The notes below the pieces were generated by a model. It had not been told where the DNA came from and did no database searches. It saw nothing but the letters and a program-made list of their open reading frames with translations. The position numbers and the translations under genes are program-made. Shown one piece after another: positions 2,355-17,303 of a DNA stretch of 17,303 nucleotides; position 1 is the first letter of the stretch; every line of letters begins with the position of its first letter. Origin of the DNA: Cyanobacteriota bacterium (GTDB lineage: Bacteria > Cyanobacteriota > Cyanobacteriia > Leptolyngbyales > Leptolyngbyaceae); the NCBI GenBank assembly GCA_027482985.1, contig JAIXVO010000351.1:1-17303 (forward strand), given 5' to 3'.

Positions 2355-2463
2355 AAATACCGTAAAGCAACGGCGAATTGCCATTCAACCCTACGCCATC
2401 AACGGTTTGTAGGGGCGAATGGCCGTTCGTCCGTTGAAATATGATTTTTCTAGAAATCCCTTA
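2355..2463. repeat. Dispersed palindromic element, intact copy
   Basis: About 109 bp running from AAATACCGTAAAG to AAATCCCTT. It contains GTAGGGGCGAATGGCCGTTCGTCC with a GGGCGAATGG/CCGTTCG dyad, and an inverted relative of the same motif upstream (GGCGAATTGCCATT). A second copy at 13479-13788 aligns along its full length (same AAATACCG start, same CCATCAA.GGTTTGTAGGGGCGAATGG core, same ATGATTTTTCT..AAATCCCT end) once a 194-bp insertion and a 9-bp duplication are removed. The two conserved ends define the element. It has no coding capacity, so it is MITE-like or another type of mobile palindrome. Confidence 0.8.
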
Positions 2464-2861: not shown

Positions 2862-3380
2862 TTAGTAACGGTTGGTGGTGCGATCGCTCACACTCGGATC
2901 CCGGTAAACGGTGCGGTCTTCTGGTTTTTTCGCCAGTCCTGCGAGTCCTGCCAAACCAAGTAGCCCTAACCAACCCCAGTCGAAATCGCGATCGCTTTCT
3001 GTCTGACTAGTGGTGTTATAAGGCGTGGTGCCCGTCGTGCTGGTCGTACCTGTTGGCGCAGTGGTGCCCGTGGTGCCCGTGGTGCCCGTGGTTGCGGGTG
3101 CAGTGGTGCCCATGTCTGTGCCCGTCGTACCTGCTGTTCCCGGTGCAACTGTGGTACCTGTGGGAGATGCTGTCGTGCCCGTGGTGGGATCAGTTGTTGT
3201 CCCTGTTGTCCCAGTCGTACCTGTTGCGGGATCGGTGGGAGCAGGAGCTGTCGTTGAACCAGCAGTACTACCGGGAGCTGTATTGGTTTGAGCCGAGACG
3301 GGACTCATACTTGGTAGCAGGGCAATACTAGCAACGCAAGCACCTGCGCAAAATCCTTTGATCCAATGAGTGTACTTCAT
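2862..3380 (-). CDS. Secreted Thr/Gly-rich WGxxGxxG-type protein
   Basis: A 172-residue exported protein. Seen: a signal peptide (residues 1-30, basic start, hydrophobic core, likely cleavage after VSA), and a long low-complexity stretch (about 45-125) made of TGTTGTT, PTTGTT and APTGTT repeats. A short acidic linker follows, then a C-terminal WGWLGLLGLAGLAGLA segment (135-150) followed by charged residues. The WGxxG plus glycine/leucine segment near the C-terminus matches the family named WGxxGxxG in cyanobacteria and other bacteria, thought to be envelope-anchored; the role is unknown. The repeats are encoded by a 9-base unit (about 3061-3087 holds three exact copies), so length variation by slippage is likely. 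An AGGAGA Shine-Dalgarno sits just before the ATG at 3380. A strong hairpin lies right after the stop. Confidence 0.8.
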   Translation of the reverse strand: MKYTHWIKGFCAGACVASIALLPSMSPVSAQTNTAPGSTAGSTTAPAPTDPATGTTGTTGTTTDPTTGTTASPTGTTVAPGTAGTTGTDMGTTAPATTGTTGTTGTTAPTGTTSTTGTTPYNTTSQTESDRDFDWGWLGLLGLAGLAGLAKKPEDRTVYRDPSVSDRTTNRY

Positions 3381-13478: not shown

Positions 13479-13788
13479 AAATACCGCAAAGAGAGGGCGA
13501 ATCACCATTTGCCCCTACCCCATCAATGGTTTGTAGGGGCGAATGGTCATCATGCGCTTCAACTTAAGCTGGAACTTTGGCTGTAAAGGGCTTTCAGTCC
13601 GCCCTCATCCCCCACCCCCTTCTCCCAAAATGGGAGAAGGGGAGCCGGAACTCCTTCCCCTCGCCCATTTTGGGAGAGGGGAACACAAGGGGTGAGGGCT
13701 TAAACCATTGCGTGTCAGCGCTTTTTGCTTAAGTTGAAGCCAGTAATGGTCATTCGCCCATTGGGACATGATTTTTCTGCAAATCCCT
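13479..13788. repeat. Dispersed palindromic element, copy split by an insertion
   Basis: The left part (13479-13550) and right part (13745-13788) together match the intact element at 2355-2463. Removing 13551-13744 and one copy of AATGGTCAT restores a clean palindromic core (GGGCGAATG, GT, CATTCGCCC) and an element of about 107 bp. It begins 8 bases after the stop codon of the CHRD/RTX gene. Confidence 0.85.
13551..13744. mobile_element. 194-bp MITE-like insertion with 9-bp target duplication
   Basis: Flanked on both sides by the identical 9-mer AATGGTCAT (13542-13550 and 13745-13753). Just inside the ends are perfect 14-bp inverted repeats, GCTTCAACTTAAGC at 13556-13569 and its complement at 13727-13740. 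The outermost 4-5 bases are imperfectly complementary. The interior (13601-13699) is a long imperfect inverted repeat: CCCTCA...TCTCCCAAAATGGG against CCCATTTTGGGAGAGGGG...TGAGGG, a palindrome type often seen in cyanobacterial genomes. There is no coding capacity, so movement would need a transposase supplied in trans. Confidence 0.85.
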
Positions 13789-17130: not shown

Positions 17131-17250
17131 TCGTAGGCGATCGCAGCATGCAGAAGAGGCAGATCATCGGGGAACAAAGAAAGTCTCGTAGAAACGCGCC
17201 GCTGGGATATCTTCACCGAAGTCGGGAGAAACTTCTTCGCTCCTGACTCC

Positions 17251-17299
17251 TGCCTTCTGCCTTCTGCCTTCTGCCTTCTGCCTTCTGCCTTCTGCCTCC
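17251..17299. repeat. Tandem heptamer repeat (TGCCTTC)
   Basis: Six perfect copies of TGCCTTC followed by one variant TGCCTCC, preceded by related CTCCTGACTCC. This is a typical cyanobacterial seven-base STRR. The array may continue or change just beyond the window edge. Confidence 0.9.
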
Positions 17300-17303
17300 T
17301 ACT

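Follow-up and report, generated by a model that had tools for sequence, protein, structure and literature searches.

Nezha is, like the element considered here, a short non-coding cyanobacterial element with terminal inverted repeats, the likeness being one of description, and the small dispersed repeats of Nostoc were reportedly treated by Elhai and others in 2008. Among insertion sequences, the closest described system is ISRm22 of Sinorhizobium meliloti, a member of the subgroup IS4Sa of the IS4 family. In the available portion of the source, it was reported that all copies of ISRm22 in S. meliloti lie in REPs and that insertion takes place at the palindromic axis (PMC1525189). The accessible part of a second paper gives CA------T as the ends of IS4Sa and 8-10 bp as the length of its repeats, and describes conserved target arms for ISRm22 (PMC2266710). 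GTAG-tagged REPs were found in cyanobacteria according to the available portion of a third, which also names the Nezha MITE and points to Pseudomonas, Neisseria and Sinorhizobium for REPs that are targeted by ISs (PMC3733652), and in the available portion of a fourth the string 'palindrom' does not occur (PMC2246112). The open-licence literature search gave no report of cyanobacterial IS4 elements in REPs among the matches listed. Since insertion of an IS4-family element on the REP axis was published for ISRm22, the present case is a cyanobacterial instance of a known habit, and its fresh part is the breadth of this habit over one transposase clade.

The locus is located in a window of 17,303 bp, by which the whole stretch of DNA that was analysed is meant, and the window is one contig of a cyanobacterial draft genome of 5,232,909 bases in 838 contigs that is 84% complete; its relatives are cyanobacterial, as judged from named loci and database records. 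The segment 13551-13745 is probably a non-autonomous MITE whose ends are those of an IS4-family element of cyanobacteria and which was placed at the axis of a REP-like palindrome by a transposase acting in trans (Table 1). What it shares with ISRm22 is that REP palindromes are hit at their axis (PMC1525189 and PMC2266710, as far as available); ISRm22 has its own transposase and direct repeats of six base pairs, whereas the cyanobacterial element found here is a MITE and its repeats are of 8 bp, so that the two are likened by description and not by sequence (PMC1525189, available portion). The CA------T ends of IS4Sa fit CACTGGCTT, and the repeat lengths here fall within its 8-10 bp, a comparison made by the accessible table only (PMC2266710). 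An Rfam scan of the window gave no match at the gathering score. Elsewhere in the window, a 172-aa ORF occupies 2862-3380 on the minus strand; its start is signal-like, and it includes a long low-complexity stretch rich in Gly and Thr. Short tandem TGCCTTC units make up the window end (17245-17303).

Table 1. Features of the interrupted repeat and its uninterrupted relative, in window positions.
Feature	Positions	Strand	Basis or remark
Host repeat, palindromic doublet with insertion	13479..13788	+	aligns to 2355-2463 as two pieces at 80-84% identity
Doublet palindrome 1, GGGCGAATCACCATTTGCCC	13495..13514	+	1 mismatch to GGGCGAATNNCCATTCGCCC
Interrupted palindrome, left part GTAGGGGCGAATGGTCAT, foot GTAG	13533..13550	+	sequence
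Left copy of 8-bp direct repeat ATGGTCAT	13543..13550	+	
MITE of 195 bp without an ORF of at least 80 aa	13551..13745	+	dispersed copies in own genome; ORF list
Left terminal inverted repeat core GCTTCAACTTAAGC	13556..13569	+	14 bp, perfect
Inner palindromic repeat GCCCTCATCCCC...GGGTGAGGGC	13601..13699	+	occurs by itself too, and in other genomes
Right terminal inverted repeat core GCTTAAGTTGAAGC	13727..13740	+	14 bp, perfect
Right copy of 8-bp direct repeat ATGGTCAT	13746..13753	+	
Interrupted palindrome, remainder TCGCCC	13754..13759	+	sequence
Uninterrupted relative of host doublet	2355..2463	+	palindromes 2371-2390 and 2413-2432

The host of the insertion is a doublet of two related palindromes in inverted orientation, the one at 13495-13514 and the interrupted one, as revealed by the fold and a palindrome scan. 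The insertion point is the axis of GGGCGAAT-GGTC-ATTCGCCC, the second palindrome of the doublet, and by the same fold and scan it falls within the 3' arm of a larger host hairpin. The initial annotation, which was made from the sequence of the window, had stated that joining the flanks gives back the host palindrome, and GGGCGAATGGTCATTCGCCC is indeed restored; its order of events, with the host palindrome present before the insertion, is likewise supported. The targeting preference that it proposed is retained for palindrome axes and abandoned for the tip of the host hairpin, the site being a local axis in the 3' arm of the larger structure. It had also described the copy as differing from 2355-2463 only by the insertion, which does not hold, as blastn aligned the two in stretches of 68 bp at 84% and 44 bp at 80% identity. 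Further uninterrupted relatives of the doublet are present on contigs C294 and C28.

The uninterrupted form of the palindrome itself exists as well, and solo palindromes are common in the own genome: GGGCGAATNNNNATTCGCCC was matched with at most three mismatches at 66 places, compared with 16 for the control. Fifteen solo palindromes are exact; read on either strand, their centres are AACC, TGCC, GTCC, GACC, AGCC and GGCC, and this variety of centres is also found in the flanking repeats. No orthologous site that lacks just the insertion was found; two congeners that have the same gene pair lack the doublet and the insert alike, and therefore give no demonstration of insertion by itself. GTAG-tagged REPs are repeated palindromes of 20-40 bp that carry GTAG at a foot. 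The host resembles those of cyanobacteria in its short repeated palindromes, in that the interrupted one has GTAG as its foot, and in the pairing of units as a doublet (PMC3733652, as far as available). It differs from them in that a GTAG or CTAC foot, read by eye, is present in no more than 8 of the 15 solo palindromes that are exact, and in that no Y1 (RAYT) transposase gene was found associated with the palindrome in the surroundings covered; the likeness is one of description. Y1 transposases were considered as spreaders of the palindrome and rejected, since none of the four has the palindrome nearby: GGGCGAATNNCCATTCGCCC is absent from the fetched 1.7-3.4 kb around the four above-cut-off matches to Y1_Tnp (PF01797), on contigs C322, C168, C2 and C830.

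The inserted element is short and non-coding and has terminal inverted repeats, the features by which MITEs are recognized. Its inverted ends follow CAyTGG(n)TTCAACTTAAG, the end sequence of the element type being CACTGGCTTCAACTTAAG, and both the perfect 14-bp inverted repeats near the ends and the long internal palindrome noticed at first sight are present. That it is a transposed non-autonomous element, as had been suggested, is supported by dispersed copies, which are scattered over many contigs of the own genome with differing flanks. A search of that genome with 13551-13744 gave 63 matches at E <=1e-5, many of them covering the middle part only, and the terminal core of 13 bases, used as a query, brought up more elements with the same ends and other interiors, whose paired ends span 188-325 bp with the exception of three degenerate pairs. 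The core matches with zero or one mismatch (32 in total) yielded 30 end loci, some of which are the two ends of one copy, and 22 of the 30 abut the half-palindrome GGGCGAATNNCCAT at 9 or more of 12 fixed positions, while eight fall short; random 14-mers of the same loci match at a rate of 0.000635. It could be supposed that the direct repeats are due to chance and that the nesting came about through recombination between repeats, given that the host doublet and palindromes are multicopy and that some copies, such as C370 and C296, have mismatched flanks. This explanation is very improbable, as 22 of 30 ends lie at the same half-palindrome against 0.06% expected, and different interiors share the same ends and the same kind of site.

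AATGGTCAT occurs on the plus strand on both sides of the insertion, taken at first as 194 bp, at 13542-13550 and 13745-13753. The flanking direct repeat proposed on this basis is present, but a length of 8 bp suits it better than 9 bp, because in 11 of the 12 other copies the position of A13745 is occupied by G, the terminal base of the element itself; the exception is the copy on C385, with T and then G. A repeat of 9 rather than 8 bp in the window copy is thus the less likely reading from these alignments, and one MITE copy from a different genome (L120) shows a repeat of 9 bp. The flanking 8-mers of 13 two-ended copies are perfect in three (the window copy, C490 and, after a two-base shift, C155), agree at 5-7 of 8 positions in nine and at 3 of 8 in one (C623). 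The initial annotation had named other copies without flanking duplications as evidence that would count against it, and the outcome is on balance favourable to it, with agreement at 5 or more of 8 positions in 12 of the 13 and with many palindromes left uninterrupted.

These 13 copies are what is left of 19 pairs after removal of C152, whose left flank is lost, and of C296, C370, C59, C680 and C443; a further copy, whose parts lie on contigs C85 and C24, is in neither set of pairs. Direct agreement between their left and right 8-mers was 84/104 against a shuffled mean of 71.6 (p=0.00085, with three of the 13 copies anchored by hand around small indels), and inverted agreement was 64/104 against 68.0 (p=0.98). 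With the printed anchors, for 18 of the 19 pairs (C152 out), direct agreement was 81/144 (p=0.054), and for the 10 copies that need no shift it was 63/80 (p=0.059); inverted agreement was below the shuffled value in both versions without hand anchoring. The ATGGTCAT flanks are accordingly regarded as putative target duplications of about 8 bp, which is supported but not proved, the own-genome statistics alone being only borderline.

An alternative reading of the same flanks is that the mobile unit includes the GGGCGAATNNCCAT arms, so that palindrome and insert move together with a terminal inverted repeat of about 33 bp. The direct repeat would then be illusory, because ATGGYCAT is nearly identical to its own reverse complement and a shared arm could mimic a duplication. 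Both arms are found on most copies regardless of the interior, and the direct-repeat tests without hand anchoring are only borderline, as this reading would have it. Against it, inverted agreement did not exceed the shuffled value in any of the three versions while direct agreement was above it, by a small margin where no copy was hand-anchored; solo palindromes without the insert are common; and relatives lie between perfect 9-10-bp repeats within palindromes whose sequence is different. The arms as part of the element are therefore considered quite unlikely, and insertion of a MITE into a pre-existing palindrome is the reading followed below.

No intact transposase was found in the own genome, an 84%-complete draft, and the best match there, a relic on C828, was rejected as the partner transposase since it comprises only 36 aa. 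A full-length IS with matching ends, for which the initial annotation had advised a search, exists in other cyanobacteria. The longer end pattern was matched with at most three mismatches in 10 of 291 genomes of the class, own genome included, and several of the single hits may be chance; the scan of named genomes for CAYTGGYTTCAACTTAAG yielded 38 stretches, of which 25 have cyanobacterial titles. In an Oscillatoriales MAG, a 1389-bp element (L165) has these ends and a 438-aa ORF. Its relative L154, 53% identical to it, contains a Pfam DDE domain and exceeds the NCBIfam IS4 cut-off (188.5 bits vs 115). The ends of the MITE thus appear to be those of an element that encodes a putative IS4-family transposase, L165, with the IS4 assignment made via L154. 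A decayed relative of 958 bp is present in L111 and L172, and Pfam recognized no family in two pieces of the decayed L111 transposase. Similar sites occur beyond the own genome: in Lyngbya sp. HA4199-MV5 the contig ends read GGGCGAACGGTCGT/end and end/ACGGTCGTTCGCCC, and the same type of palindrome has ACGGTCGT on either side, the two sides coming from different contigs in each case, and in another family ACCGCCGT flanks a MITE on either side, inside GGGCGCACCGCCGTGCGCCC.

The search with the L165 transposase gave matches in 39 of 388 genomes at E <=1e-30, and many full-length relatives in other cyanobacteria lie in palindromes with 9-10-bp repeats, an example of the flanks being GTAGGGGTTTAGCAATGCT-IS-AGCAATGCTAAACCCCTAC. 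Copies with both ends were classified as near (at least 49% identity to L165; 22 copies) or distant (at most 43%; 14 copies), and a site was scored as palindromic when its arms agreed at 8 or more of 10 positions. Palindromic sites were found for 13 of 22 near and none of 14 distant copies (p=0.00025, with copies of the same genome not independent and with a threshold fixed after an earlier look at the data, for which five near copies without perfect repeats but no distant ones had been added, to the advantage of this reading). Restricted to copies with perfect repeats, the counts are 7/13 and 0/7 (p=0.044), and by genome they are 9/14 and 0/9. The nine near copies below the threshold include L154 and L201, which have perfect repeats, and L156, scored as palindromic at 8/10, is not REP-like by eye. 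Duplicates of one place were counted once (L199 = L165, L253 = L204), and the 36 copies leave aside loci whose ends were not found by the script, L207, L208, L214, L217, L221, L223-L227 and L245. In an 18-tip tree of the transposases, a long branch with support 1.0 parts the near from the distant group, and all 18 have the YREK motif, Y(2)R(3)E(6)K, a likeness to IS4Sa by motif and not by alignment with named members. The palindrome habit tracks the transposase clade.

The comparison also bears on what is recognized at the target. If the target were chosen by sequence, as ATNNCCAT or a like motif, the palindrome would be incidental and the motif would merely be located in a common repeat; one consensus is in fact common to the own-genome sites. 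The palindromes hit by the relatives, however, are unlike in sequence (for example GTAGGGGTTTAGCAATGCTAAACCCCTAC, GGGCAGGCATCTTGCCTGC and GGGGCTTAACACTGTTAAGTCC), and target choice by sequence is unlikely. Under the preferred reading, insertion directed by the palindrome itself, a transposase of the IS4 clade would excise the MITE in trans and join it to both strands of the palindrome at points staggered by 8 nt. This enzyme, possibly a symmetric dimer, would favour the two-fold symmetry of the palindrome or an extruded hairpin, and the donor transposase would have been lost from the genome or would lie in its unassembled part. A wider proposal can be put forward only tentatively, as somewhat less probable than otherwise: one clade of cyanobacterial IS4 transposases may have acquired recognition of two-fold symmetry or of an extruded hairpin in any sequence, which would make the REP-like palindromes of each host havens for insertion, let left-behind MITEs inherit the targeting, and turn the nested stack into an ordered record of successive mobile elements. 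REP-axis targeting by IS4-family elements is hereby extended from one proteobacterial IS to a clade over several cyanobacterial families, and is shared by a MITE. The targeting clade and its non-targeting sister clade offer a natural comparison for locating the palindrome-reading part of an IS4 transposase, and REPs as harmless landing sites would help account for the persistence of such elements.

The inner repeat forms a further layer of the locus. It was matched in 41 of 58 genomes, own genome included (40 of 57 others), and among the matches listed those from other genomes are confined to about positions 42-167 of the insert, mostly 50-149. Because only the middle of the insert is matched, the palindromic repeat at 13601-13699 is distinct from the MITE that surrounds it and widespread, and three nested layers (doublet, MITE and inner repeat) are present. 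Nesting of palindrome in palindrome was also considered for this inner GCCCTCA repeat and found no support, the mean arm score over 19 loci being 7.47 vs 7.58 for mismatched pairs. The Cyanobacteria-wide GCCCTCATCCCC...GGGTGAGGGC repeat is found elsewhere inside other inverted-repeat units, for example between the arms CCTGACACACCAAAATAGCT...GGTTTTGGTGCGTGAAGTAT. Four MITE copies of the own genome (L002, L013, L015 and L022) have about 25 extra bases resembling GTTCGGCTGAGCGCTCA-CGTCGAAGCCC inside their inner repeat, which adds one more level of nesting. At L099 (C119) and L104 (C746), also in the own genome, type-2 MITE copies are adjoined or interrupted by another repeat resembling GAATCAGCCCTGC, which may be another IS.
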